This document shows positions 7,981-25,680 of a stretch of 31,382 nt of DNA, one piece after another; position 1 is the first letter of the stretch; each line of letters opens with the position of its first letter. The notes under the pieces were generated by a model, which was not told the origin of the DNA, searched no databases, and worked only from the letters and a program-made list of their open reading frames with translations. A program made the translations under genes and the position numbers. The stretch comes from Stramenopiles sp. TOSAG23-6 (Eukaryota; Sar): the NCBI GenBank assembly GCA_900128565.1, contig LT635961.1, forward strand, positions 1 to 31,382. The letters are read 5' to 3'.

Positions 7981-9803
7981 ATGAGCATGTCTTCTCGCCA
8001 GCGCCACTCTAAGGTACGATATTGTTTTGCTGACACAAAGCATTCTGATGTGTATACTGGCCTTCCTGCAACTCGTGGGGTAGGTGATCATCAAATGATG
8101 AAAGCCAACTCTAAATTTTTTGCTTATGGATTTGATGCACCAGGTGGGCCCCTCCTGGTGTGGCCGCATGAAAAAAAAGGCAAATTTTCTCGTCAACAGA
8201 TATTCCTTGGCCATGGTCATTCCGATTCAATTATGGATATCGACTTTTCTCCTTTCAATGATAACTTATTGGCCACAGGTTCTAGAGATGGTACCATCAA
8301 ACTCTGGCAACTTCCGGATAGTGGAACATCTGAAAAAAACATCAAACCCATAACTTCTCTTGATCAACATTCTAAACGTGTTTTATTTACTAAGTTTCAC
8401 CCAACCGCCGAGAATGTTTTTGCAACAGCAGGTTCAACACCTTCAAATGAGTTGTTCATTTGGGACATTTCGCGTGGTGAGCCAACCCTAACATTTGACT
8501 TAGAGTTACACTCTTCACAAATAGAAGATTTGAAGTGGAACGAAAATGGGTCTTTACTTTGTACCTCTGATAAGTCTTGTATAGTACGCATGTTCGATCC
8601 CCGTGCCCTTGCTGTGGGTAGTGAACCAGTCGTTTCTTTCAAGCCACATCAAGGACATCGTCCTATCAAGGTCTCTTTCATTCCAAAATTTGATCGCTTC
8701 ATAACTTGTGGGTTTACTAAGTCTAGTAAACGTGAGATGAAATTCTGGGATCCACGAAATCTTGATAAACCTATTCAAAAAATTGCTATGGGACAGTCAC
8801 CAGCTGTTTTGTATCCTTTCTTTGATCAAGGTACAAATATTCTGTACGTATGTGGTAAAGGTGAAAACGCCGTGCATCTCTATGAGGTAGTAAGTGGAAC
8901 TGAAAATATTGTTCACTTGTCCAATGTGAATGGAATCGAATCATCGAAAGGATGGTGTATATATGTTTTCATCATGAATTTCAATTTTTGTTTTCGTACC
9001 AAATTTTGTACCTAACAAATTTCATTTTGTTTTTTTCACAATACATGATGCCGAAACGATCTTGTGATGTCATGAAACATGAAGTAGCGAGATGTTTAAA
9101 ACTAACACGTAATGGTGTTGAATCTATGCGCTTCAGAATTCCTCGTAAATCTCGTGATTTCCAGGAAGATCTCTTCCCTGATGCACCTTTCCCATTAAAT
9201 CCTATGTCAGCTGATGATTATTTTTCTGGTAAAAATAAGGATCAAGAACTTAGTTCTTTAGATCCTAAACAGCGTACGGATGCATCAGGTGGATCAGTCT
9301 TTGTTGCAGCTAAAACATCTACAGAATTATCTGTCGAGTTGGCTGCTGCAAATGCAAAGATAGTCAAATTGGAAAAAATGAAACTTGAACTTCTTGCTAA
9401 ATTGAAAGCAAAAGGAATTACACCTTTAAAAATTACTCCTCCGCCAGCTCCTGTGATTAAAAAAACTGTTGTTGTTCCGCCAGCTCCTGTGTTTAAAAAA
9501 ACTGTTGTTGAAAAAGTTGTCGCTCCAGTTGTTGTGAAGACAGCAGCAGCTACATCACCTCCAGTAGTTAAAAAGATTTCACCAGCAAAAGAAGTAAAAC
9601 CTGTCAAAAAAATGCAGGTTGTCAAGAAGGCAGCATCGCCGAAGAAGGAAGTAAAACAAGAGAAAAAAATTAAAAAAAAGACTGTCATGAAAAAAGCAGA
9701 CTATATGAAAGAAATATCGAATATGTGTAAAGATCTTGACCGAAGCGATGTTAAAAAAATACACGTCCTGGTGAAAGAGATCTGGGAAGCTGATGGTAAC
9801 TAA
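7981..9803 (+). CDS. CORO: Coronin (actin-binding WD40 protein), two exons, about 578 residues
   Basis: Exon 1 (7981 to about 8958) encodes an N-terminal basic coronin signature and WD40 repeats such as GHSDSIMDIDFSP and LATGSRDGTIKLWQ. Exon 2 (about 9045-9803) continues with the family motif MPKRSCDV...HEVARCLKL and the conserved RIPRKS / FQEDLFPDA segment. The reading frame changes between the two, so an 86-nt piece must be removed. Coronins bind F-actin and the Arp2/3 complex at cortical actin. A coiled coil (about 418-450, TELSVELAAANAKIVKLEKM) matches the usual oligomerisation helix. Normally the protein would end there; here a Lys/Pro/Val-rich tail with two PPAPV-x-KK-T repeats and a final helical segment (about 541-578) follow. 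The start is the first ATG, matching coronin N-termini. AATAAA lies at 9916-9921, past the TAA stop. Confidence 0.9.
8957..9046 (+). other. Intron within coronin with non-canonical borders (86 nt removed)
   Basis: Homology demands joining K-G-W-(C or Y) to M-M-P-K-R. Removing 8959-9044 (AT...AC; sliding by one or two bases gives the same product) yields Cys. Removing 8957-9042 (GT...AT) yields Tyr. No AG occurs between 8957 and 9082. The first canonical choice, GT at 8957 to AG at 9083-9084, is in frame but would delete the conserved MMPKRSCDVMKHEV segment. The interval contains the repeat shared with the left edge and a CCTAAC branch-like core (9011-9016). Confidence 0.75.
8992..9022 (+). 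repeat. Intron repeat, copy 2 (introner-like)
   Basis: This stretch is 30/31 identical to positions 1-31 and in the same orientation. It is followed, as in copy 1, by T tracts and a CA(C/T)AAT motif just before ATGAT. It lies wholly inside the coronin intron. Confidence 0.7.
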
Positions 9804-10832: not shown

Positions 10833-12881
10833 ATGCGTAAAATGACGAACCCCCCACCAACACCACAGGTCACAATTGAAGATGTTGAATCTGAGGATGA
10901 ACCTCCATTGATGCCGCACGAGTTAGTTCCAGCAAAAAAAGCGCACTCAAAAATTTTAGAAATCCGCCAAAAGTTTACAGCGTTAGATGCTGATAAATCT
11001 GGTTATCTTGATATTGATGCAGCTCGTCAACTCATGATTGCGTTGGAGATACCATCAACATACGACGTCCAGAAAAGTTTTTCTGAGATTGATATAGGAG
11101 AGCAAGGCAAATTTTGTGTGGATGAATTTATTTACTGGTACCGACTAAGGTTTCCTATAGACCCTGAAGATGTAATCAATAATCTACGATATATTTTTAA
11201 TATGTTTGATGAAGACGGTAATAATGAGTTAAGCAAAAAAGAAGTTCGTAAAGTTTTAAAGAAAATGGGTGTACAAGTTTCTACAAGAGTTTTTCGACGT
11301 AAGGGAAAAAAAAGAATGAGAGATATATTCAAATTGATGGATATTGAACATAAAGGGACGGTATCATTTTCAAATTTTCTTCAGTGGCATAAACGAGAGT
11401 ATCAGCAACTCCATGCGTGGGAAGTTGAAAATAATACTGAACACGTTCGTACTTTAGAAACAGATGTCGTGATTCGTAATGAAAGTAAAGTAGATCCTTC
11501 GCTTGGAGAAACCACGGGAAAAAACGTGTTAAAAAATGAAAAAGATGAAGCAATAGAAACGGCAAAACGACGGATACCACAAATCAAACAAATAATGGGA
11601 AACATCGAAAAAAAAATGACAGAAGAAAAAGGTGTACTCAACACAGAAAAAAAGATATCAGAAAATGAACCACCACCACCGCCACCACCGCCAATGGTAC
11701 CCACAGAAAAAAATATGACAGAAGAAAAAAACAAAAAGAAAAAAGAACCAGTAGAGACGGCAATAAAAGAGATACCACAAGATGTATCACCACCACCACC
11801 ACCACCACCACCGATGGTACCCACAGAAAAAAATATGAAAGAAGAAAAAAACAAAAATAAAAAAGAACCAATAGAGACGGCAATAAAAGAGATACCACAA
11901 GTTGTATCACCACCACCACCACCACCGATGGTGCCCACGAAAAACAATATGGCAGAAGAAAAAAACAAAAATAAAAATGAACCAATAGAGACGGCAATGA
12001 AAGAGACATCAGAAGCCATAGACAAAAATATGCCTGAAAGTGAAGCTGTTGTGTCTTTTGATGTAGGCTCCAGCGAAGCAGGTGAATCTGTTATTTTGAT
12101 GAAAAACAAGAAGAACATAGAGACGGAAGGTGAACCCGAAGAAAACAAATGTAATAATGACGAAAATAGTACCAAACAAACGCAAGTATTTAATGACATA
12201 CAAAAACGAAAATTGAATATAATTTCTAGAGATTCTGCTGTTAAACAATTTCAAAACATCATTTTGCATCTACATGAATATGATTCTGACCATTGGTATG
12301 AGCCTCTCAAAAAAAGCTTAGAATGTTGCAAAGAAGTAGGTATGTCTGGTTATGAAGTTTTCAAACATTTAAAAACTTTGGATTTTAATAGTGAAAATCC
12401 AACTGAATATAACACCGAAATTAAAACTACTGAAAATTCATCACAATTACAGTCCCAGGAAAAAGATATAGTGGAAGAGAAACCCATTCATGAACTGGTT
12501 CGATGTATTTCGCCAAAGAATGAAGAGAAAATCATTATAAAGAATTTGGAAACTAGTGAATCCATAAATCCTTTGTCTAAAGCCAAAGCGATGCGTGAGT
12601 TAATAAATTTACACATTGCATTAAAAGTGAATCTTAGATATCAAACTGTCGGAGAGATAGAAAGTTATATAATGGCAGATGTGAATACAAAGACTCGATA
12701 TATAGAAAAAAATATTTTGCAGAAAAAAATCACAAAACTGGCACGTTTAACTTCTCATGAAAGTTTAACGCTTCACAAAGTTTTCAGTGTCGATGAAAAT
12801 GGTATGACTTGTGTAGACGATTTTTTGGCGTTCATCAAACTTCCCAGCTCGCAATTAGTTTCTTCAAGTGAAATGTTATGA
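10833..12881 (+). CDS. EF-hand protein with proline-rich tandem repeats
   Basis: The 682-residue protein starts with a calmodulin-like block of four EF-hand units (about 40-190). Loops begin at D52, D87, D126 and D170. Only the third (D126-E-D-G-N-N-E-L-S-K-K-E137) has a full canonical set of ligands; the first, second and fourth lack key positions (A63, G89, N181). A long charged linker follows with three copies of a repeat of about 40 residues, each with a run of 6-9 prolines, MVPT, and a Lys/Glu-rich segment ending near ETAIKEIPQ. The C-terminal third is helical and includes a degenerate EF-like motif (DENGMTCVDDF). Poly-proline runs bind profilin, SH3 or WW domains in other proteins. A calcium-responsive adaptor is a plausible role, perhaps cytoskeletal, but this is inference. 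AATAAA hexamers lie at 12910-12915 and 12929-12934. It converges with the dynein gene. Confidence 0.75.
   Translation: MRKMTNPPPTPQVTIEDVESEDEPPLMPHELVPAKKAHSKILEIRQKFTALDADKSGYLDIDAARQLMIALEIPSTYDVQKSFSEIDIGEQGKFCVDEFIYWYRLRFPIDPEDVINNLRYIFNMFDEDGNNELSKKEVRKVLKKMGVQVSTRVFRRKGKKRMRDIFKLMDIEHKGTVSFSNFLQWHKREYQQLHAWEVENNTEHVRTLETDVVIRNESKVDPSLGETTGKNVLKNEKDEAIETAKRRIPQIKQIMGNIEKKMTEEKGVLNTEKKISENEPPPPPPPPMVPTEKNMTEEKNKKKKEPVETAIKEIPQDVSPPPPPPPPMVPTEKNMKEEKNKNKKEPIETAIKEIPQVVSPPPPPPMVPTKNNMAEEKNKNKNEPIETAMKETSEAIDKNMPESEAVVSFDVGSSEAGESVILMKNKKNIETEGEPEENKCNNDENSTKQTQVFNDIQKRKLNIISRDSAVKQFQNIILHLHEYDSDHWYEPLKKSLECCKEVGMSGYEVFKHLKTLDFNSENPTEYNTEIKTTENSSQLQSQEKDIVEEKPIHELVRCISPKNEEKIIIKNLETSESINPLSKAKAMRELINLHIALKVNLRYQTVGEIESYIMADVNTKTRYIEKNILQKKITKLARLTSHESLTLHKVFSVDENGMTCVDDFLAFIKLPSSQLVSSSEML
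11668..12015 (+). repeat. Three in-frame tandem repeats of about 114-120 bp
   Basis: Within the EF-hand gene, the units start at about 11668, 11788 and 11908. The CCACAGAAAAAAATATG landmark at 11700-11716 recurs 120 bp later; the third unit is 6 bp shorter because of fewer CCA/CCG codons. Length change by proline-codon number suggests slippage. All units stay in frame. Confidence 0.7.
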
Positions 12882-12990: not shown

Positions 12991-15900
12991 TTAATCTTTT
13001 TCTTTCTCCCCGGCTTTGTCTATTGTCAATAAAATAGCTGTGCCATTATCTATCCATTTCGAATGTTTATCCATCGTGTTCATTGTTGCAATAAATTGGA
13101 ATTCCGAGACTCTCTCATTCGATAAGTATACAGGACATTCAAAAATATCATCATTGTTCCGAAGATATCCAGCTTCGATTCTTTTCCACTTGGGATTAAT
13201 ACGAATTGGGCGTATAAGCATAATTGGTAATCTGAAAAACTTTGTGTTTGTAATTGAATCGTCCAAACATCCTCCATATTGAGAATTGCCTATACTTTCT
13301 ATATCACTACTGGTTGGCTTCTCCCAGCTAGCGCCAATTAGATACATATCATGTGCATAACTGCCTCCCATATCTGGATGTTCATTAATGTTTTCAGTGT
13401 TAGAATACACAGTAACTTTAGTTTCTAATGTAAATGCTTCAATAGGGTGATTTTGCTCTTTAGCGGCGGATTGTAATATTGCAGATAAATATTTTTTCGG
13501 TGCAAATAATCCACCGAGCCAAATAGAGACTGGGCGCTCCATTTCACTCACCCATACATTCAATTGATCAACTCTAGCAAGTACATTATCCCACCAGTCA
13601 GTTAGTGATTGCTTCCATTTCCATGATAATTGAATCCACTGGTATGGTACTTTTTTAGAAAATATAGTTTTTATAATTTCAACGAGTTCATCTGTCATAT
13701 TAATCTTATTATCAAGCGCAAGAGCTATTTCATCCAACGATTTCTTGAGTTTTCCCAAGAAAATGTTCATCTGCAAGCACTCCTGAATGGCGAATCTCGC
13801 ATAAGGTGCATTCACATCATCCATAAGAACTGGCTCAGCTGCAATGTTTACATCATTCATGTTGAATTCTCGTGGCATCTTCGCAATTAGAACATCAATC
13901 TTCTCTTTGACATATTTCTCTCGATCCTTCAACAACTGAAGACTCTTTGATATTTTCTCTTCTACCGGTGGTTTACGTTTTGGTGCACCATCATTGTCGG
14001 CTACATTATTAGAATTGCCGTCACTGGTGGATGATAATGCTCCGGCTGTCTGGGCTTCATTCTGATCAAACTGTAATTTTTCGATTAGCTTTGAATGGGG
14101 TTGCATTATAATTTCACTTCCAAAAATATGCATCCCGTTTTTACAAATATATCCAAGTTCATCCACGAGAAGATTTCGCCCTGAATTTTCGTGAATGCCA
14201 AATGAACTAGAATTTGTGACTGAAGGTAAATTATCAGTAATGTGCTCTAAATAATCTTCATATTCTGCGCTAGCGTTGTCTAATGATGGGAAGTCTGGTA
14301 AAATATCACATTGCTCAAATAGTTCAGCGACAAACATTTTATCTAAATAATTTCGTGTAATACGGAGATCCCAAAAATTACTCATATGACCTCCATACAC
14401 CAACTCAGCAAAAATGTATCTCAGTTCTTCCCATGGAATTGAAATCTGTTTATCGAGATATCGTTCCATGATATTGATACATGTACCAAGGTCTCGTTTA
14501 TTGAATCGATAATTGTTACTCCAGCCAACAGACCCATATCGCTTTCTACCAACCAAAATTGCATGAAGAGAACATAGCGCAAAACTCAGTGCTTTGAACT
14601 CGGTAGGCTTCTCAGCCTCAAGAATTCTTTCTGGTGGAATTACCGACCAAGCTGATCTCATTATATGTGGTAACTCATTAGGTTCGTCATTGCAAACTTG
14701 TACACATTCTCTAAGTAAACTCTCAGGCAAAATTCGTCCAATTTCAATAACACTTGCTGGTGTTGTATTCGTATTAGACTCATTTGTTGATATAGAGAGC
14801 AAAACCCGGAAGTCTTCGTGGGCTTGACTTGTAACTGATTCTAATATCTCTTCGAGGCGGAGAAAAGTTTCCGGGACCAAATGTAAATTTTGTAGCAATA
14901 TCCATCCACCCTCTTTGCCAAGCCTTCGAATCTCTGTTTCCATAAAATCTTGATTATTCCCGCCGAGAGCAATAACCACAAATTTTCCATTGGATGGTGT
15001 AAAATCAAGTTGTGATGACATTGCTTCCACCCATGCAGTGGGGTCTTGACCTGGTACTAACACAAATAAAATTGGATTACACGATCTACTCTTTTCGTAA
15101 AGTTTCTTCATTGAAAATGAAGTATGTTTTACATATTCTGGGCCTAGATTAGATTCGATACAAGCTAGTATCATGTGTTTTGCGCGATCAGGACGAAGTG
15201 TTTGGATAAGCAAAATACGATCGAAATAGTCCAAATTTTCATACGGCTCTCCACCGGGGATCACTTCATTTTCTGGTTCGGCACTGAAATACCAATCAAA
15301 CCATTCTTCACTGTCTGCTTGCATGTGTGATGATATGTACCTATACTCTGAGAACTCGTTTAATGCGCATACCTTGGCCCATGCTTCAGTTGATAACCAA
15401 CCGCTAATTTGACCCATTTCACTTGGATTGGGATTAGATGGCGAATGAAGTAAATGCTCCAATTTCTTTGGGTGAATCTTTCTACTTATAGCCATAACTT
15501 TGCAGAAAAAGAGGAGTGCAAGTGTAGTATGGTCGTGATTATATATTGATCGTTTAACATCATTAAAAACAAAACTCGTTACCTTGTCTTGCATAACTAT
15601 ATTCTGTTCTTCTATTTCATCATCATCAAGCATTCCAGGTGTCGCATTTGGCATAAATACATTTCGAACGTTCTGTGGTGTTGGCAAACGTGCGGCTCGT
15701 AATAAATCAACACCCCAAATATAGCGTAATGTTGACTCAAGTTCACTACCGGCTACACGTTTTTTCTTGTCGAGTGACCTCGAGCCTCCACTATTATTTC
15801 CACTGGAAGATTTATCTAATGCTCGTGCAAATGTAATTACAAAAGAGTTCAATGAAAACACATAATTAGGATTTATCTTATGAAGATCGCTCAGTAGCAT

Positions 15901-18900
15901 AAAGATATTAGCACCACGCTCGGCGACTGGTCGGTACTTCTCTATAATTTCTTCCAGTTGAGTGGCAGTTGATTCAACAATGGAAAGCTTTTGTTTTGCA
16001 CTTTTTGCTGCAATTTTTGCACGTTCAAGAATATCAACAATTTCTTGGTCCTGGCAGACATCAACCTCCGCGTCGGCTAGTTTCTGTAATATTAGTGATT
16101 GAAGTCCTGCTAGCTGAATCTTTGATGTTGAACGTTGAATTGTATTGTTGGCAAACCTCTCTGCAATATCTGGTCTTTGTTTCCGAATTACGACGGCTAA
16201 TAATTGTTCTTCCAAACACTCTTGATTTACTGTAAAATCAACGAAAGTACAAGCTCCAAGTATACTATCAGAAAATTTAGGATTGCTTAAACGAGTTGCC
16301 ATATATAGTCGAAATGATCCGTGCATCTCAAATTCCGATCCACCCAATACTACATAATTTGTATTGCCTCTCTCATGTATCCTTTGTTTAATCAAGTTCA
16401 TCAAGATTGGTGGGAATTCTTCTTTCACGCCCTCCAAGAGAACAATTTGACCCTCCTCGAGGGCACCACTTAATATTTGCACGAATGCTTTCATCCCTAT
16501 ACGTAGATACAAGATATTACTCGATGGTTGTTCATCACCTGTACTTGCATTTGTGTTTTTCGTTGATTCGTACCGAGATTTAATCCAATGTACAGCTTGC
16601 AACTGAGGATCTAAAAGAAGTGGCCAGCGTTTGCTTTTTCTAGCGATAATTGCATTTTCAATTGAGGATCGATCGTTCGACAATGTTTCAGAAATAAGTT
16701 TGTCTTCATATTCATCACTAAGTAAAGCATACGCAGGATTGACAACCGTGTTCAAAGATATGTTAATCTGAGAGTTTCTCAAAAATGGCAGCCATGTTTG
16801 AGATAATAAAGTCCAGCGATGTTTAGTATCAAAAGGACCTACAAATGAAACAAAAGCAGAAGCTAAAGTGACATCACCAACCAAGTAATCACCATAGTTC
16901 TTAATCTCTTTTTGTTTTTGAAGCCATATGTCTTCTTCATCAAAAAGTGATCGGGCGAGTCTTCGAGCTAGCTTAAGTTTTGTCCGCCCAACAGTGAGCT
17001 TCATCACAGCGTCATCTTTTTCCTCTTCGGCAGACTCAAAATCTTTATTAAGTTGATTCAGAACTAATTGCATATCTTTAAGTTCTACTGTTCGATTATT
17101 AAGATTTTTATTTGCCTCCGCGAGATTTTCTGTTGCTTTTGCCAATGCTTCCCGCAATGGTGCCGTCGAAATGTAGACGTCATAATATGCTACAATGTTA
17201 ATTACCCATGAAACTAATATCCCTGCAGCAATATTTCGCGACGAGATAAGATCAACATCAAAATACTCATTTTCGATATATTGCCGAACTTCTTTCATGT
17301 TAATGGCAGGGATTTTCATGTCATGTAAAAGTTCTTGATATCCCTTGAGTTTTTCTATAAACACATTAATATTAGGCAACAAGGTTTTTATACACATTTT
17401 CCATGAACGATCGCGAATACGCCCACTTGAATCCACCCCATCAGTGATGTGAACTCCTGCAAAGAGCACCATAATCGCAGCAAAAACATCATCAACTCCC
17501 TTAGGAGGATCTTTTAATGTTTTACAAACACCCAGATCTCTCTTATCAATAGTTTCTGCAGCAATCTGAGAACGTACAAGTGCTGGCTCTCCTTTTTTAA
17601 GCTCTCCTTCGCACATTTCCCTCTTTGCGTGTGCGTCTTTTTGTACATTGGTACATATTTCTTGCTCCTGGCTGCATTTAAGACTTGCAAAGTCAACAAG
17701 AGACTTTTGTTCCGATACTTTAACTGCCAAATCTTCAGCTTCCTTTTTCTTTTCTTCGGCAGCTTCTTCCAAGAACTCCATATTATCTTCGATCTCGCCG
17801 ACATCATTCTTTGTCCTTCGAAGTTTATCAATGCCAATTTTCAAACGCTCAGTATCCGTTTCTACAGCGGCTGACTTCGTTTTTAAACCATGACGTAAAC
17901 GACGAAGCATATCAATATAATCTAGTGGTGCTATGTATACATGTCGTTGTGTATTCTCAAAATAAGTTTCCACCATTTCGGTGCTGCTACTATATACTAG
18001 TGGGATAAATTCTTCAACAACTTTAGCAGCTTTAACTTTATCCTCCCCAAATTCTGCAATATAGTTTGGCTCATCATCTTTTTTATCATCGCCCTCTTCA
18101 CCACCTTCAACTTGATCGTCGATAGATTTTTCCTCCGTAGGTGCAGCCAGAAACATTTGAGATATTTCTTGTAAAGTTGATACAGGCCATGATCTAAACC
18201 AATCTATTGTTGGGCATAAAAGTAGGCTCGGAAATCGTTTTGCTCGGGGCGAGAAATCAGGTGTAGTCGGAGACATGCACAAGATAACTTTGACATTTTT
18301 CTTTACTTTACCGATGAACCAATCCCATGACATTTCGTTGTCTATTGTAAGAACACGAAGTTCTGTTTTAGCTTTTGCCATTACATCTGTAATTATTGCA
18401 TCTTTTTCATCTTGGGGATATAAATCTTGTATTTCACAAGTGCTTATTAAATCAGATATAATCAATAGGATATCATCATTTCGTAAATATTCCTCGGTCA
18501 ATAAAAGTACTTGCTGTTTATCAGGGGCACCAGCAAGGACAAACATTTCTTTGAGGCGTTCCTTAAGCCCTGTTGCATTTTCAGAGTCTAATGCATGTAT
18601 GGGCATATTATTCATATGACAAGCAATTCGAGCAAGGGATTGTTTTCCCGTACAACCATGACCAATGAGACACACGTGACCTTGTCGCTGCAAAAGAATT
18701 CGTGTTATACGCGTGATATGTGACATGGCATCATTAAATAAAATCAAATCAATCTTTGGTTCATGTTTGTTGTGCTTTTCTACAGCTACAGATAGTTGCT
18801 CTCGAAGACTTTCCCAAGTAAGTACCGAATCATACACTTGTTCGTCAAGACTCTCCGCATAATGAAAGTAGCACAATGGCTCTGTTTGTGCCTGATTAAA

Positions 18901-21900
18901 AAATGGCTCGAACGCCATCTGAGGAAAAGATTTCTTCGCAGTTTTGAGAACATAACTTTTGTATTGCCAGAAATCTCCAGAAGTTTGCATCATATCACCA
19001 TACGCACGGTCACTCTCATGCAGCCATAATGCGATTAATTTTTCAAAATTTCCAAATTCTTTTTGATTTGACATTAGCATGCCCTTGAAAAGATGCGACA
19101 TATTCCGAATAGACCAACCAAAATGACAATTGATAGGAGTTTTGCGGAAGTTTTGAACAACTGCTTCGTGAACTTCTACAGCAGCTGTAACTATTGATTC
19201 GGATAAGGATTGGCATTCTGCATTAAAACGGCGAAGATGTGCATCTAAGAAAGTTTTAAATAATATTGTTAATGATGTGCCTGATAAAATAGGAAGGGAT
19301 AAAAGGGTAAAATGGCGTTGCATACGAACTCCCACTGATTTGGATCCCGCAAATGGATTTACGGAACCAATATATACTACATTCTCGATGTGTTTTTTCT
19401 CTAATTTTGAAGTATCATACCAGTATCCGTACTCTATATGTTGCCTCAAAAGTTCGTGTATAGATTGGGTACCGTATTGATCAGGCTGAGGCAAACTCAA
19501 ATCATCTAAGAAATAAACACAATCATGACCACCCGGAGGGGCATATCTATTTTCCCCCCCTTTTACTAGAATATGTTCTAGAGGAGACTTCAGATTATCT
19601 GTGCTGCTATAATAATTGCAATTTAATCGTATGTGCATCGTTTCATTTTTGTCTTGTTTTTTGCACATATCTTCAAGAATTGCAGACTTCCCTGTTCCTG
19701 ACGGACCGATTAATAAAAACCCTCGATTAGATGAAATCATCTTCTGTCCCCAGAAACTGATTGGGCAGGTCTCAGGAACCGGTACCACAACTTCTGAAAT
19801 ATCTGTAGTAACAGAATCAAAAGGCACACTAAAAAATTGAGGTGACCTATTCCATAGTTCAAAAACATTACTACCAGGATTAAGCCAGTAGTCAAATACA
19901 GTTTCACGCGCCGGAAATTTTACACGATCAAAATCTGGATATTTCTTCCAGAATTCACTGAACTTTTTGTCCCAATTGTTACCTCTTTGGTATCCGGAAT
20001 ATCCACCAAATGACCAAACCATGCAATAAATAAATGTTTTTTCAACACTGTTTGTAACTGCTGAGACGTCGCCCACCAGCATATCAGGTTTTATCATACT
20101 CGAGAACATTGCCAGAAATGTGTTAGCCGAACCAACAGCAGAAAATGGTAATAATGTTTTAGAGCTCTCTAAATATTGTACTGTTGGTTCCACGTAAATG
20201 CTAACTAGATTTGCGAGTGCGTCTTTTGCTTCCTGTTCCACATTCTGATGTTGTACCCATGAGGCGAATATACTTCTCCATTGAGCTCCTTCTTCAAGCG
20301 ATATCCATATTATCGTCGATCTTCCTACTGTTGAAGGGGATGTATTTTCGAGACTATTGACTTCAAATATCACTCTCATGTAAAACTTTAGATGTATTCT
20401 TTCATTGCTTTGAAGAATAAGTGTCTTGCTATTATCCATTAGAGCATTCAACGATTCAGCCCACCCTGCATCTATTTCACCATCTACAATTAACCATTTT
20501 GGTTCTTCGTCGCGAATACCTGCCAAATGCCTCAAAGCTTTTGGAAGCAGTCCTTCTCCCCACTCATGAGATTCATTATCTATAGAACCCAGTAATTCTG
20601 AAACAGTCACGGCCTTCGGGTTTATAACTTGTACATTAAGCTCCTTTAGCTTTCGAGCACGTGCGAGAGATTTCCAACATTCTGTTTTACCACAACCGAC
20701 ACCACCCATCAGCAATACTGTATGCGAGGAATCAAGTGCGTCGCTCAAGTCAGAGCAACGCCCTAAAAGATATTCCTCGGGCCATAGATCACGTTCCATT
20801 GCAGCATTCGCTATGGCGTTTTCCAAATCAAGATCTTTTGATTCCTCGGGTTCTTCTCCTGGGAATATGTCTGAAAGAATTCTATCAAAAATGTCCAAGT
20901 CATGAGTTTTTAATGTTGGGATGCAAATACTTTTGATGGACTTCATAACTACAGAGTTTTCTGACATATTTTCATTGTTCCGTCGCACTGATGATGCAAG
21001 CATTAAAATATTTGATGCTACTCGAAGCCCCCAGGCATAATGTCTTTCCTGGGCCAATAAATCCTTCATCATTTGCATGACAATATCAAGTTTTCCTGCT
21101 AAATCTTTTGCAGACTGAAACCCAGAAGACATCAATAAGTTCTCATAAATAATTTGACTATCTGGCTTGTAAAGAGTTATAGGGCGTAATAATATACGGA
21201 GATTATCTGGTAATTCGACACGACCACGATAAGATGGATTCACATTTAAAAATATCGCAGACGTTGACTGTAGTCGTATTTGACTCCCTTCTATATTAAC
21301 AGTCTTTTGGTCGCCTCTCATAGCATTGAGTAATGCCTTATATTGCAACGAACACACAGAAAGTACATTTAAGGGTAATCGATCAAATTCGTCAAAGCAA
21401 GCCCAGGTTCCACTAGCTGCGACGCCTTTAAATATTTCAGTTAGACTGAGGTAATCAAATTCAGGCGAAAAGTTAAAAATAAAGGAAGGCTTTGCCATCG
21501 CAACTGCGATATCACATGTAGTAGAAGTTTTCCCTGAACCGGAAGGACCAACTGACAAGCATCCCATTTTTGAATGCATTGACTGTGTCATTGATAAATA
21601 TACACGATTTGTCAAGTTGGTAACAACAAGGCGTGCCCCATTACCCACATATTCAAACCCATAATTAAAACTAGCGTCTAAAATACTAACAACCGCACCA
21701 CTCTCAGGCGAGTATTTGTATCTCAGCTGTTTACTCCATTGAAAACTTACTGGGGAAACAGTATTAGTCTGAACTAAATTGTGTGAAATATCTCGGTAGT
21801 GTGCCCCTTTCACTATCATCGCTTCAACTCTAAATCTATCGCAAATGCTTATCTTGTTTCGGACTATGAGAATCATATCTGATAACTGCTGGTGACATAG

Positions 21901-24900
21901 CCGCAATACACTATTTAGAGCATTCTTGTCACCACTAGACAGCCCTTTGAAAGCTTTTTCGACACTTGTTGTAAACATTAGCGCACTTACTAGTATTACT
22001 ATTTGTGCGCTATCTTTGTTACGGGTAGATTTTTTCTGATGTCCCTTTTCTCCACTAACTTTCTTTTTATCCATAAGCCACTCTGTTCGTTTCTTTTTAC
22101 CGAATCTTTTCAGAGATAGATTCAATGAGGTAGATAGTGTTGATCGAATTTTTAGCAATATTTCGTTTAAGTATGCTTCTGGTTTACCGGTCATTTTCAC
22201 TGTGGGGTCTAGGTCAAGCGTTTCTTCACCAACTAGTGAAGTGAACTGTATTACTCTGTATTGTGGACCAACTTCATTTGAAGCCGATACACCTTCTTCT
22301 TCTTTTAGTACTAATGTTTGAAGCGTAGGAAATAATTTGGGTATGTGTGTCAATAGTTTTGGTGGTTGTCCACCATTGGCAAGGACGTGCATGAGGTCTA
22401 ATTCTCCCATAAAATAAAAACGTGGAAATTGACCACGCTTACTTTCCATGAAACGACCAAGTGAGAGTTTACATTCCATTAAACTTTTTTCTATTTGTTC
22501 AAGTTTCTTCTGCACGGATTTTGAACAACAATACTGTTTGACGATCTTGGTCATATAAGCACCCTTTAAAACTTGTTTCATATCAGCATCTAATTTATTG
22601 AACACTTCTGCATCCATAGGAAGCTCATTCTGTACTTCTTCCGAACCTTGAAACAAAGGCTCTAGAAACATCCAAAGTTTTGAGGTTTTACGAATAAGCT
22701 GTATAACGGTCACCATCATTTCCATTGATTTTTTCCATTGATCAAGTTTCTTTAGGAAGAATGCAGCAAACTTTGATGCCAGAATACCTTGAATCGTCAT
22801 TTGGTCACTCTCCAAAGCATAAAAATCTTCCTCAGATATTACACAAACTTTTAATTTGTGAGACTCAACATCAATATATTCTTTGAAACCAAATTCAAGA
22901 TCGCCCCACACTTCATTCATTTTAACAAGTGCTTGTTCAATTTTCTCCTCTTTTCGGGCGCGATCTGTTACATCTTCTATCACACCAATATATCGATGTA
23001 CACCAATGTTGATTATTTGGGAAACTGGACACATTTTATCTTTATACGGAGAAGTAAATGGTTTATCAACTTTTGCACTCAGGTTATCCCAGTGTCGAGG
23101 GCGCATAGCTGGATGCGTCAATTGTTTTATTAATGGACAAGCAACAGTAAATTCAACGATTGTTTTCTCAAGAACTTCAAATGCATCACAAAACTTGATT
23201 TCATTGGGCAAAGATCGGATCTCTTTTAGCATACCCTCTGTAGAAGTTTGCATGCCTTGGCCATCAAGTTCAGTCCATAGAGCCATACCCATCAGACGAA
23301 GTCGAGTTTTCCAAGATTCTTCAAATTCCCAAAACTGAAGTTGCCATTTAAGCTCATTCTTTACAATGTTAAGCATCTCTTTGGAGTGATCCAATAGCTC
23401 TGGAAATTCAAACACTGTTGCAATACGAAGCTGTTTCTTAAATAGTTGTAATTGTTCTTTGTGTTCAGCTCTTGCATCTTCAATCAATCTTTGCGCTTTT
23501 TGAAATCCAGTTGTACTTTTCCAGTATTCGTGATGGCGATGATTGTCTAAGTATTCGGCAACTGTTGCTTCATACTCTGCTAAGTCCACCTTTATTGTGA
23601 GCGAAGCATCTTTCACCAGTGGTGCAATCCTCACTGCTGTTTTTGTAGATTGTGTCTTTGCTTCTTTCCATAATTTTTGAACTTTGTCTAATCTTTCAAC
23701 AATTTCTCTAAGCCATGGAAGTTCAAATTTTGATAAGAATGAAATCGTTGCTGCACATGTATCAACACCAATCTGAAGTTCGCCTTGTTTCCCCGTAACA
23801 TTCATTACATGTTCTTTGACATCTGTAAGAGCCGGAATATCTCCCCGTTGAACCTCGTACTTAAGACCTTCAAGTGTTGATTGCGAGAATGTCAACAGTT
23901 TACTGATAGTTTTTTTTAAGTCGTCTGTAACGAGCTGGCCATCCATTCGATTTGTATCTGTATCATGTGTACGAATAAAGTCAACTACGAATGGACTTCC
24001 TCGAAGAGCACCTGCATTACCCCTGAATGTACCATCAAATTCAACCTCAATATTATACTTGCCAGCAACACCAGCTTGAAAGATGACTATGTAATCACCG
24101 TCGTCATTATCTCGAATATCGTAAGCCAGAGTTACTCCATGTGGATCTTCGATGACTATATTAAAGATATCCCCTCCGCTACGTCGGTATTCGTTCTCTG
24201 TATCAACGGCTTGAATATGAAATATAGCCTGTGTCTCAGCAGCAGCACCATTAATTAATGCAGGACCAAATGCAACACAGTTGTCGCAATCCGTTACATT
24301 AAAGAAGGTAAACTTCCTGTAAGTAGTCGTAAAACTGTCTCCTCGTAGCGAAACCCGTACCTGAACTTCTTGTGCACCTAGTGCTTCGAATGAGGGTGTG
24401 GTACACACCATTGTTTCTTCATCAATATACTCTCCCTCAGCATCACTAAAATGTTTCCTTGTGGCAAATCTGACTGTAACCGGGGGACGATTAGCGAAAT
24501 CTACACCGATGATGGTCATTTTAATTCCTCCGGTGACCGGACCCATAGATGGTTCAATATTAAGAACGGCATATGGCGGTCCAACAATTGATCCAACATC
24601 TAGTGTACATATATCTCCAAACCATTTATTTGCCCATCCTCCAAATATAATAAGACGACTACCCTTTGTATCATATGCAACAGATGCATCTGATCGACCT
24701 TGTGGGGGCTCACCTGTTGTCGCAGGGTGAAACATATTGAAGTCACCAGTGTCCATCACTGAAGTATCACTAGCATACATTCCTTGAAGCAAATTTTCAG
24801 ACTTTGTGAGGTCACCACAGCTTCCACCAAATATAAATATTTTCCAATTTGGAATAGCTTCTACGGCACACGCCGACATGTTCCAACGAGGAATTCCAAT

Positions 24901-25680
24901 ATTTGAATCTACTTCGGACCAAGTATTCGAGGTGCAATCGAGTATCCAAAGGTCATTAAATTGTTCACCACAATTCCAACCCCCCATCACATATATCTTA
25001 TGATTCTTTTCTTGTGTTGTTGGAGTAGCACAATGACCAGATCGTGATTTAGGCATCTTTCCTTTGCATAGTATCTTCTTCCAGTGCATTTTTTCTAGAT
25101 TTCTAACATCGAGACAATACAGGTCACTGAGTTCTCGACGAGCAAAACCTGATCCACCAAACCCACCAAAAAAGTATATGTACTCTTCCCCAACTGGCGT
25201 TGCTGTATGCCCACTTCGAGGGGTTGGTAAATCCTTTTGTGTGTGAAGATATTTAGGGCAACTCCATAACTGAGTCACAGAGTCAAATATCCAGCAGTCG
25301 TTCAGTCGTTGTTCACCGGAAAGGTTTCCTCCAAAAAGGAAAATGCAGTTGTTACCAAAGAGAGTTGCAGAGTGTTTCCACCTAGGTTTTGGTTTTGGCA
25401 TGGGAGGACTAAGCTCTGGATCATCATTACGAAGTTTTGGTATGCCCCATTCAAATGAAGTTTGGCCAATCTTTAACGTGTACATTTGATTCGTTGGGCC
25501 TTCGGAAGTGCAGCCACCAAACATAATGGCTTGATTCCCAAGGACAGTAATGGATGCCCCCGACCTGGCTTCAGGAAAGTCTCCAAAAACTGAAGGACGT
25601 TTCCACTTTAGCAAGGATTTGGGGTCTCCTGGGTTTACTGGTGCTGACATATAGTCCACAGCACTATTGCTGCTTTCCAT
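12991..25680 (-). CDS. DHC: Axonemal outer-arm-type dynein heavy chain with N-terminal Kelch, IPT and filamin domains
   Basis: This is a 4229-residue, apparently intronless motor protein. Six Kelch repeats (about 35-355; for example RSGHTATPVGEEYIYFFGG), an IPT/TIG domain (about 370-460) and a filamin-type Ig domain (about 465-568) precede the tail. This is the layout of the Chlamydomonas outer-arm alpha heavy chain, so an outer-arm role in flagellar beating is likely. P-loops occur at AAA1 (GPSGSGKTST, about 1378), AAA2 (GGVGCGKTE, about 1658), AAA3 (GPSGTGKSA, about 1991) and AAA4 (GHGCTGKQS, about 2339). AAA1 has Walker B WACFDEFDRL and sensor NPSYRGRVELP; its P-loop departs from the usual GPAGTGKTET. 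Stalk coiled coils lie at about 2606-2715 and 2840-2915 around a microtubule-binding domain. A Lys-rich insertion sits in the linker near 1190-1215. The start is the first ATG; the stop is TAA, with minus-strand AATAAA at 12973-12978. It is divergent from the MYND-LRR gene. Confidence 0.95.
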   Translation of the reverse strand: MESSNSAVDYMSAPVNPGDPKSLLKWKRPSVFGDFPEARSGASITVLGNQAIMFGGCTSEGPTNQMYTLKIGQTSFEWGIPKLRNDDPELSPPMPKPKPRWKHSATLFGNNCIFLFGGNLSGEQRLNDCWIFDSVTQLWSCPKYLHTQKDLPTPRSGHTATPVGEEYIYFFGGFGGSGFARRELSDLYCLDVRNLEKMHWKKILCKGKMPKSRSGHCATPTTQEKNHKIYVMGGWNCGEQFNDLWILDCTSNTWSEVDSNIGIPRWNMSACAVEAIPNWKIFIFGGSCGDLTKSENLLQGMYASDTSVMDTGDFNMFHPATTGEPPQGRSDASVAYDTKGSRLIIFGGWANKWFGDICTLDVGSIVGPPYAVLNIEPSMGPVTGGIKMTIIGVDFANRPPVTVRFATRKHFSDAEGEYIDEETMVCTTPSFEALGAQEVQVRVSLRGDSFTTTYRKFTFFNVTDCDNCVAFGPALINGAAAETQAIFHIQAVDTENEYRRSGGDIFNIVIEDPHGVTLAYDIRDNDDGDYIVIFQAGVAGKYNIEVEFDGTFRGNAGALRGSPFVVDFIRTHDTDTNRMDGQLVTDDLKKTISKLLTFSQSTLEGLKYEVQRGDIPALTDVKEHVMNVTGKQGELQIGVDTCAATISFLSKFELPWLREIVERLDKVQKLWKEAKTQSTKTAVRIAPLVKDASLTIKVDLAEYEATVAEYLDNHRHHEYWKSTTGFQKAQRLIEDARAEHKEQLQLFKKQLRIATVFEFPELLDHSKEMLNIVKNELKWQLQFWEFEESWKTRLRLMGMALWTELDGQGMQTSTEGMLKEIRSLPNEIKFCDAFEVLEKTIVEFTVACPLIKQLTHPAMRPRHWDNLSAKVDKPFTSPYKDKMCPVSQIINIGVHRYIGVIEDVTDRARKEEKIEQALVKMNEVWGDLEFGFKEYIDVESHKLKVCVISEEDFYALESDQMTIQGILASKFAAFFLKKLDQWKKSMEMMVTVIQLIRKTSKLWMFLEPLFQGSEEVQNELPMDAEVFNKLDADMKQVLKGAYMTKIVKQYCCSKSVQKKLEQIEKSLMECKLSLGRFMESKRGQFPRFYFMGELDLMHVLANGGQPPKLLTHIPKLFPTLQTLVLKEEEGVSASNEVGPQYRVIQFTSLVGEETLDLDPTVKMTGKPEAYLNEILLKIRSTLSTSLNLSLKRFGKKKRTEWLMDKKKVSGEKGHQKKSTRNKDSAQIVILVSALMFTTSVEKAFKGLSSGDKNALNSVLRLCHQQLSDMILIVRNKISICDRFRVEAMIVKGAHYRDISHNLVQTNTVSPVSFQWSKQLRYKYSPESGAVVSILDASFNYGFEYVGNGARLVVTNLTNRVYLSMTQSMHSKMGCLSVGPSGSGKTSTTCDIAVAMAKPSFIFNFSPEFDYLSLTEIFKGVAASGTWACFDEFDRLPLNVLSVCSLQYKALLNAMRGDQKTVNIEGSQIRLQSTSAIFLNVNPSYRGRVELPDNLRILLRPITLYKPDSQIIYENLLMSSGFQSAKDLAGKLDIVMQMMKDLLAQERHYAWGLRVASNILMLASSVRRNNENMSENSVVMKSIKSICIPTLKTHDLDIFDRILSDIFPGEEPEESKDLDLENAIANAAMERDLWPEEYLLGRCSDLSDALDSSHTVLLMGGVGCGKTECWKSLARARKLKELNVQVINPKAVTVSELLGSIDNESHEWGEGLLPKALRHLAGIRDEEPKWLIVDGEIDAGWAESLNALMDNSKTLILQSNERIHLKFYMRVIFEVNSLENTSPSTVGRSTIIWISLEEGAQWRSIFASWVQHQNVEQEAKDALANLVSIYVEPTVQYLESSKTLLPFSAVGSANTFLAMFSSMIKPDMLVGDVSAVTNSVEKTFIYCMVWSFGGYSGYQRGNNWDKKFSEFWKKYPDFDRVKFPARETVFDYWLNPGSNVFELWNRSPQFFSVPFDSVTTDISEVVVPVPETCPISFWGQKMISSNRGFLLIGPSGTGKSAILEDMCKKQDKNETMHIRLNCNYYSSTDNLKSPLEHILVKGGENRYAPPGGHDCVYFLDDLSLPQPDQYGTQSIHELLRQHIEYGYWYDTSKLEKKHIENVVYIGSVNPFAGSKSVGVRMQRHFTLLSLPILSGTSLTILFKTFLDAHLRRFNAECQSLSESIVTAAVEVHEAVVQNFRKTPINCHFGWSIRNMSHLFKGMLMSNQKEFGNFEKLIALWLHESDRAYGDMMQTSGDFWQYKSYVLKTAKKSFPQMAFEPFFNQAQTEPLCYFHYAESLDEQVYDSVLTWESLREQLSVAVEKHNKHEPKIDLILFNDAMSHITRITRILLQRQGHVCLIGHGCTGKQSLARIACHMNNMPIHALDSENATGLKERLKEMFVLAGAPDKQQVLLLTEEYLRNDDILLIISDLISTCEIQDLYPQDEKDAIITDVMAKAKTELRVLTIDNEMSWDWFIGKVKKNVKVILCMSPTTPDFSPRAKRFPSLLLCPTIDWFRSWPVSTLQEISQMFLAAPTEEKSIDDQVEGGEEGDDKKDDEPNYIAEFGEDKVKAAKVVEEFIPLVYSSSTEMVETYFENTQRHVYIAPLDYIDMLRRLRHGLKTKSAAVETDTERLKIGIDKLRRTKNDVGEIEDNMEFLEEAAEEKKKEAEDLAVKVSEQKSLVDFASLKCSQEQEICTNVQKDAHAKREMCEGELKKGEPALVRSQIAAETIDKRDLGVCKTLKDPPKGVDDVFAAIMVLFAGVHITDGVDSSGRIRDRSWKMCIKTLLPNINVFIEKLKGYQELLHDMKIPAINMKEVRQYIENEYFDVDLISSRNIAAGILVSWVINIVAYYDVYISTAPLREALAKATENLAEANKNLNNRTVELKDMQLVLNQLNKDFESAEEEKDDAVMKLTVGRTKLKLARRLARSLFDEEDIWLQKQKEIKNYGDYLVGDVTLASAFVSFVGPFDTKHRWTLLSQTWLPFLRNSQINISLNTVVNPAYALLSDEYEDKLISETLSNDRSSIENAIIARKSKRWPLLLDPQLQAVHWIKSRYESTKNTNASTGDEQPSSNILYLRIGMKAFVQILSGALEEGQIVLLEGVKEEFPPILMNLIKQRIHERGNTNYVVLGGSEFEMHGSFRLYMATRLSNPKFSDSILGACTFVDFTVNQECLEEQLLAVVIRKQRPDIAERFANNTIQRSTSKIQLAGLQSLILQKLADAEVDVCQDQEIVDILERAKIAAKSAKQKLSIVESTATQLEEIIEKYRPVAERGANIFMLLSDLHKINPNYVFSLNSFVITFARALDKSSSGNNSGGSRSLDKKKRVAGSELESTLRYIWGVDLLRAARLPTPQNVRNVFMPNATPGMLDDDEIEEQNIVMQDKVTSFVFNDVKRSIYNHDHTTLALLFFCKVMAISRKIHPKKLEHLLHSPSNPNPSEMGQISGWLSTEAWAKVCALNEFSEYRYISSHMQADSEEWFDWYFSAEPENEVIPGGEPYENLDYFDRILLIQTLRPDRAKHMILACIESNLGPEYVKHTSFSMKKLYEKSRSCNPILFVLVPGQDPTAWVEAMSSQLDFTPSNGKFVVIALGGNNQDFMETEIRRLGKEGGWILLQNLHLVPETFLRLEEILESVTSQAHEDFRVLLSISTNESNTNTTPASVIEIGRILPESLLRECVQVCNDEPNELPHIMRSAWSVIPPERILEAEKPTEFKALSFALCSLHAILVGRKRYGSVGWSNNYRFNKRDLGTCINIMERYLDKQISIPWEELRYIFAELVYGGHMSNFWDLRITRNYLDKMFVAELFEQCDILPDFPSLDNASAEYEDYLEHITDNLPSVTNSSSFGIHENSGRNLLVDELGYICKNGMHIFGSEIIMQPHSKLIEKLQFDQNEAQTAGALSSTSDGNSNNVADNDGAPKRKPPVEEKISKSLQLLKDREKYVKEKIDVLIAKMPREFNMNDVNIAAEPVLMDDVNAPYARFAIQECLQMNIFLGKLKKSLDEIALALDNKINMTDELVEIIKTIFSKKVPYQWIQLSWKWKQSLTDWWDNVLARVDQLNVWVSEMERPVSIWLGGLFAPKKYLSAILQSAAKEQNHPIEAFTLETKVTVYSNTENINEHPDMGGSYAHDMYLIGASWEKPTSSDIESIGNSQYGGCLDDSITNTKFFRLPIMLIRPIRINPKWKRIEAGYLRNNDDIFECPVYLSNERVSEFQFIATMNTMDKHSKWIDNGTAILLTIDKAGEKEKD

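Follow-up and report, generated by a model that had tools for sequence, protein, structure and literature searches.

Two stretches of the window (the whole 31,382-nt piece of DNA analysed here), at positions 1–31 and 8992–9022, lie on the same strand and, read directly from the sequence, agree in 30 of their 31 bases. Why should two genes share a piece of intron so faithfully? The initial annotation suspected a family of introner-like elements with a common, recently spreading source. Our analyses point in the same direction: the repeat is very probably a copy of a non-autonomous intron-creating DNA element (an introner) of a MAST-3 marine stramenopile, and the introns that it creates would end in AT. 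The introner is a known kind of element; what is new here is a non-AG acceptor supplied by the duplication of a dinucleotide.

Two copies of one element in the window

The copy at 8992–9022 indeed lies inside an intron of a coronin gene, and the copy at position 1 at the very edge of the contig, 5' of a short terminal exon, as had been described. The first coding exon of the coronin gene (7981–8960, + strand), with matches to the WD40 and DUF1899 domains and a 71% identical relative (P0001), ends in ...GGA TGG TGT AT; the second (9047–9803, + strand) continues in an open frame to its stop codon, and the C-terminal half of P0001 can be matched to it by eye. The introner copy, delimited by the family rule described below, makes up the 86-nt intron between them (8961–9046, + strand). 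The repeated stretch (8992–9022, + strand) is the middle of this element and includes a branch-site-like motif, TACCTAAC, at 9009–9016 (+ strand). The intron starts with ATATGTTTTC, the family majority being GTAYGTTTT, and ends with CACAATACAT; this copy has lost the GT donor and carries AT at 8961–8962. It is flanked on the left by the dinucleotide AT (8959–8960), which the sequence and the covariation in the family assign to the exon, and the right-hand AT (9045–9046) forms the 3' end of the intron by the family rule. The joined product reads GWC-M-MPKR across the junction and is equal in length to the corresponding GWCCLPKR of P0001 and GYCVAPKR of P0002.

The second copy (1–67, + strand; boundary again from the family rule) is truncated at the contig edge. 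It has TACCTAAC at 18–25, ends with CATAATCTAT, and its right dinucleotide is AT at 66–67. A probable short terminal exon follows (68–107, + strand, with TGA at 105–107), the rest of the gene presumably lying off the contig. Similarity between the two window copies reaches 45 nt at 91% (family D5). The gene adjoining the edge copy (180–1367, − strand) encodes a phosphatidylinositol-transfer-protein domain. An Rfam search of the window yielded zero matches.

A genome-wide family

The window corresponds to contig C11 of its own assembly (8.03 Mb in 408 contigs), and a search of that assembly bears out a spreading common source rather than chance resemblance. The exact 15-mer TTTGTACCTAACAAA occurs there 696 times (376 + 320), a count inflated by duplicated contigs, and the reversed control 0 + 0 times, so the window harbours two of many copies and not the only two. 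A blastn search with window positions 8900–9060 as the query returned at least 46 matches in the same assembly, with 40 of 751 candidates scored. On contigs C2, C4, C27 and partly C37 the coordinates of the matches are mirrored within the contig, and in C13 and C14 they repeat with an offset of 2. These are probably palindromic or duplicated contigs, that is, artefacts of amplification or assembly, and independent introner copies must therefore be fewer than the raw counts. In viral contigs, the bare 15-mer was present in at least 120 stretches; three of these 120 had weak scores at both ends and were taken as chance occurrences rather than introners. Prokaryote genome contigs gave no match to the 22-mer core.

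For comparison we assembled 117 distinct copies, each with its two ends and sufficient flanking sequence, dropping 48 duplicates and leaving out rows with weak ends or short flanks. A conserved core resembling TACCTAAC served to locate the copies, and they were scored by models of the two ends that were built from 50 pattern-picked copies and exclude the flanking dinucleotides; as the copies were gathered by the conserved core, well-kept ones are over-represented. The copies are 84–163 nt long (median 98), with a mean GC content of 19%, and conform to the outline 5'-GTAYGTTTT...CGTACGAAATTTTGTACCTAACAAA...TTTTTC(A/C)A(A/C)AATAC-3', the last block being the 3' part of the element. The donor GTAYGT, the branch-like motif TACCTAAC and a T-rich tract are the hallmarks of the family. 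The element opens with GT in 101 copies, with AT in seven, with GC in five and with GA in four. Two flavours, GTATG...CCAAAATAC and GTACG...CACAATAC, are intermixed; the median identity of a copy to its nearest neighbour is 0.83, the highest 0.97. Possible terminal inverted repeats amount to GTAY/ATAC-like ends of about 4 bp. Two sequence features had initially been highlighted in the window copies. One of them, the CCTAAC core, is present in all compared copies but served as the search criterion; the other, a GTAC-bounded near-palindrome (CGTACGAAA or CATACGAAA), is common without being general, as only 54 of the 117 copies hold it.

How such an element would leave the transcript is suggested by its anatomy. 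A GTAYGT donor, a CTAAC branch site and a T-tract are spliceosomal signals, and the assembly encodes PRP8 (L223, contig C84), intact across the 1406 aa examined. Both observations speak against removal without a spliceosome, by a route that relies on paired ends to keep the exons together and has been proposed for the non-conventional introns of euglenids and the introners of Amoebophrya. Such a route would suit a non-AG acceptor and the short complementary ends GTAT...ATAC, and also the fact that U1, U2 and a clear U6 snRNA were not found in the incomplete assembly (for U6 there are three matches below the cut-off, of a level also seen in seven of 14 control genomes). However, the ends of the same copy show no pairing excess, their −2.01 kcal/mol being no better than that of swapped (−2.17) or shuffled (−1.92) ends, and we regard removal by this route as very improbable.

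Reading frame, flanking dinucleotides and the 3' splice site

The copies are found mostly inside coding genes and in the sense orientation. With codon preferences learned from the long open reading frames (ORFs) of the window, and the best frame on each side called from 60 nt, sense flanks score above antisense flanks in 105 of the 117 copies, and in 77 versus three with a clear margin; a distribution mainly outside transcribed regions and in both orientations, named initially as an outcome at odds with an introner family, is thus not what the genome exhibits. One fixed frame relation holds across 97 of the 117 copies and across 81 of the 85 with clear calls, chance being one third: removing the element together with one flanking dinucleotide restores the frame in these 81. 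All three codon phases are seen, and the lengths modulo 3 are spread 42, 39 and 36. If the boundary is set after the right dinucleotide, a stop codon appears within 30 codons in nine of the 85 copies, as against 75–78 of 85 for boundaries at offsets 0, 1, 3 and 4. For 34 loci that each hold at least two copies (some of the loci overlapping), removal of the copies raises the summed length of the longest ORFs from 8660 to 12462 aa, and boundaries shifted by 1 or 2 give only 7518 and 7628 aa; locus by locus, the longest ORF increases in 28 cases, is unchanged in one and decreases in five. Together with the hundreds of copies and the sense bias, the restored frame lends weight to the introner reading of the initial annotation.

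The same counts bear on two other interpretations. If the copies were ordinary GT-AG or GT-AA introns with a cut immediately behind the CACAA/CACAG near the 3' end, TACAT would remain in the exon; this interpretation could draw on the T-rich tract that precedes the cut and on the AG found there in eight of 77 copies. We give it hardly any credence, since 78 of 85 copies, if cut there, run into a stop within the next 30 codons, and the copies in L009, L022 and L045, which do have CAG at this place, still follow the downstream frame rule. An equally slight probability attaches to a MITE-like transposon that sits unspliced in genes and turns them into pseudogenes. Of 77 copies in an earlier set, 56 would indeed, if retained, introduce an in-frame stop, but on either side the reading frames and the conserved residues continue under one exact rule, several copies reside in single genes (the loci of the L013 contig, L017 and L044), and random insertion would yield both orientations.

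Four of the 85 clearly framed copies break the rule. Copies in tandem or nested within each other occur in L047, L021, L031, L040 and L045, which fits an element landing in or beside its own copies, and this accounts for some exceptions: among those of an earlier set, L021 and L040 are tandem composites, whereas L010 and L041 are not explained in this way.

As boundaries of the same frame class lie one or two codons apart, they were distinguished by homology. Gap-free alignments across the joined junction were obtained for a CHD protein (which reads LADE-M-GLGKT), two ABCC proteins, and TBC, PRMT5, DHHC and kinesin proteins, and by eye for coronin. A kelch product with four junctions has only four relatives in a protein search (23–45% identical, the full-length matches 39–45%); its junctions 1 and 3 align without gaps to P0125, and with a one-residue gap near junction 1 to P0126, junction 2 (L017 at 1232) is two residues longer than either homologue, and junction 4 could not be aligned. 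The junction of a USP gene (L198 at 251) also appears, by eye, to be two residues long, and both surpluses are perhaps insertions that added codons. An asparagine-synthetase-like product had no relative in a search against the PDB, its good junction fit being judged by eye only. In the kinesin gene (L047, C76:2100-3200) two introners lie back to back at about 452–660, and the joined exons encode the conserved DSLGGTSKT; to judge from this product, the pair must be removed together. The strict cut-off gave no match for this kinesin, and a looser one was used.

Neither a 2-bp target duplication nor a non-AG acceptor was part of the initial annotation. The left and right dinucleotides are identical in 84 of 117 copies, compared with 69.8 expected; none of 20000 permutations attained 84. 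They covary as would the two halves of a 2-bp target-site duplication. AT is more frequent on the right (101 of 117) than on the left (80 of 117), which is what one would see with a left copy free to drift in the exon and a right one that is kept. Of the 16 copies with another right dinucleotide, eight carry the same one on the left (GT in three copies, TT in two, and AG, GG and AC in one each); the GG/GG copy, in L211, is an exception to the frame rule. A longer duplication was considered and rejected, there being no consistent extra identity outside the dinucleotide in 77 copies (at most 29 versus 22.2 expected at +3 and 25 versus 19.3 at −8). A search of the own assembly for empty sites covered about 51 of 91 prepared junctions (the first 2079 of 3640 bases) and revealed none; the sole 31-nt match, C35:26398-26428, falls within L042 and is probably an occupied site.

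The AG acceptor is near-universal and among the most rigid parts of a spliceosomal intron. Here the right-hand duplicate would close the intron, giving most copies an AT acceptor: by the family rule it is AT in 101 and AG in three of the 117, and the strict 3' pattern has 784 AT, 27 AG and no control matches genome-wide, duplicated contigs included. These proportions do not fit the canonical U2 GT-AG class. U12-type AT-AC introns have an ATATCC-like donor and a branch site near the acceptor; this class does not fit either, as the donor of the introners is GTAYGT and the second A of TAAC lies 32–49 nt 5' of the boundary in 80 of 81 rows of an earlier set (in one row, at 92). The CHD gene that carries an introner also has a diverged intron, which appears, by eye, to end in ...TATACAT.

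The same introner might instead be spliced with its left dinucleotide in the intron (NN|GTAYG...TAC), usually as AT...AC. The acceptor would then be a constant AC, the spliced product would be identical wherever the dinucleotides are equal (84 of 117), and the coronin copy in the window, too, can be read as AT...AC. We nevertheless find this improbable, since the two readings diverge where the dinucleotides differ. In the kinesin pair (left TT, right AT), keeping the left copy in the exon gives DSL, the residues of the family, and not the DSH-GG that would replace DSL-GG under AT...AC; a one-base shift of the boundary yields an identical product. With the TBC copy, which has AT on the left and AG on the right and so ends in AG, keeping the left dinucleotide in the exon gives the F of TBC1D4 and TBC1D23, not V. 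At kelch junction 3 an intronic left copy yields Y and an exonic one N, the homologues having D or C. The AT...AC reading also entails slightly lower junction codon scores (33.3 versus 37.1 in 27 copies), and it is the right dinucleotide that is better kept (AT in 101 versus 80). For AT-ended introns, the identification of the right-hand copy as the putatively intronic one rests mainly on the kinesin.

We thus favour an exonic left and an intronic right dinucleotide, and from frame and homology we infer splicing along the following lines. A transposase would insert the element and duplicate 2 bp of the target; the spliceosome would use the element's own GTAYGT donor, CTAAC branch site and T-tract; and the 3' cut would fall at the end of the right-hand duplicate, so that the target would dictate the acceptor dinucleotide, as a rule AT and only rarely AG. 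The spliced mRNA would regain its sequence from before the insertion. If this is true, the transposon could duplicate nearly any dinucleotide, mostly AT, and be a working intron at once, which is how introns could be made without an AG in the target. With target-supplied acceptors, the host spliceosome would have to tolerate non-AG ends. It is quite possible, if somewhat short of probable, that the MAST-3 spliceosome is AG-independent, recognising the 3' site from where it lies past the branch motif or from the ATAC in front of it, and that the introns of this genome are by now GT-AT at large. A crude scan for GT-AG introns outside the copies in the examined loci gave 25 candidates, two of them with AG; control donors reached as many (26 and 33), so that the scan favours neither side.

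Host lineage and comparison with known introners

The PRP8 gene also provides a clue to the host. Exact shared blocks cover 1127 of the 1160 residues of the EukProt entry GSMAST32.ASY1.ANO1.1620.1, which, going by its label, places the genome in the MAST-3 stramenopiles; among the other named matches are oomycetes (74–76%) and, ranked second, a partial Haematococcus entry (65%). Some stretches with an open reading frame in the assembly are missing from the EukProt model, and the differences look like gaps in the gene model, as if introns had been mispredicted. A short-pattern search of the assembly for small-subunit rRNA found none.

No report of introners in MAST-3 was found in the literature, supplements aside: the word MAST is absent from the consulted main text of PMC9860276, the word intron from the consulted part of PMC8163842, and in that of PMC5778133 'intron' occurs twice, in the methods, and 'splicing' not at all. 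The introners of Chrysochromulina sp., as portrayed in sections of PMC9860276, are similar in forming near-identical introns in unrelated genes, in bringing their own donor and in taking the acceptor from a duplication that leaves the mRNA length unchanged, but there the duplication is 4 bp, whereas the MAST-3 family combines a 2-bp duplication with AT in place of an AG acceptor; the same sections mention 3–9 bp repeats for earlier introner families. The introner elements of Amoebophrya, another marine protist (PMC7789003, in part), share non-canonical borders and short direct repeats at the exon borders. They differ in 8–20 nt inverted repeats that pair the ends, for which the MAST-3 copies show no pairing above chance, in direct repeats of 3–5 nt rather than 2 nt, and in the variation of both donor and acceptor, the MAST-3 donor being nearly constant. 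Micromonas and Aureococcus likewise have element-made introns with direct repeats, with inverted ends in some families (cited in the portions of PMC9860276 and PMC7789003 consulted), and those of Aureococcus are credited in the latter with canonical splicing motifs and with repeats that do not vary in length. In tunicates, too, the spliceosome handles non-GT-AG introns genome-wide, and introner transposons with weak splice sites are named as a possible source (PMC13326754, in part), but the host is unrelated and the subject there is changes in U2AF and snRNAs.

The family predicts a relaxed recognition of the acceptor, testable in one lineage. It also matters for annotation, as such genes would defeat gene finders built on the GT-AG assumption. 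According to the consulted part of PMC5778133, the gene finder for MAST-3F was trained on MAST-3A, complete protein matches being lacking, and AT-ended introns may be the cause of this problem. For MAST-3A, the same part reports no full-length dynein heavy chain. The window encodes an intact one of 4229 aa (12991–25680, − strand) in a single uninterrupted exon, with Kelch, TIG and filamin domains at its N-terminus, which makes MAST-3F the likelier source of the genome. Between the coronin and dynein genes, an EF-hand protein (ORF 10833–12881) contains three imperfect tandem repeats of 114–120 nt (11669–12022, + strand) that code for a proline-rich stretch.
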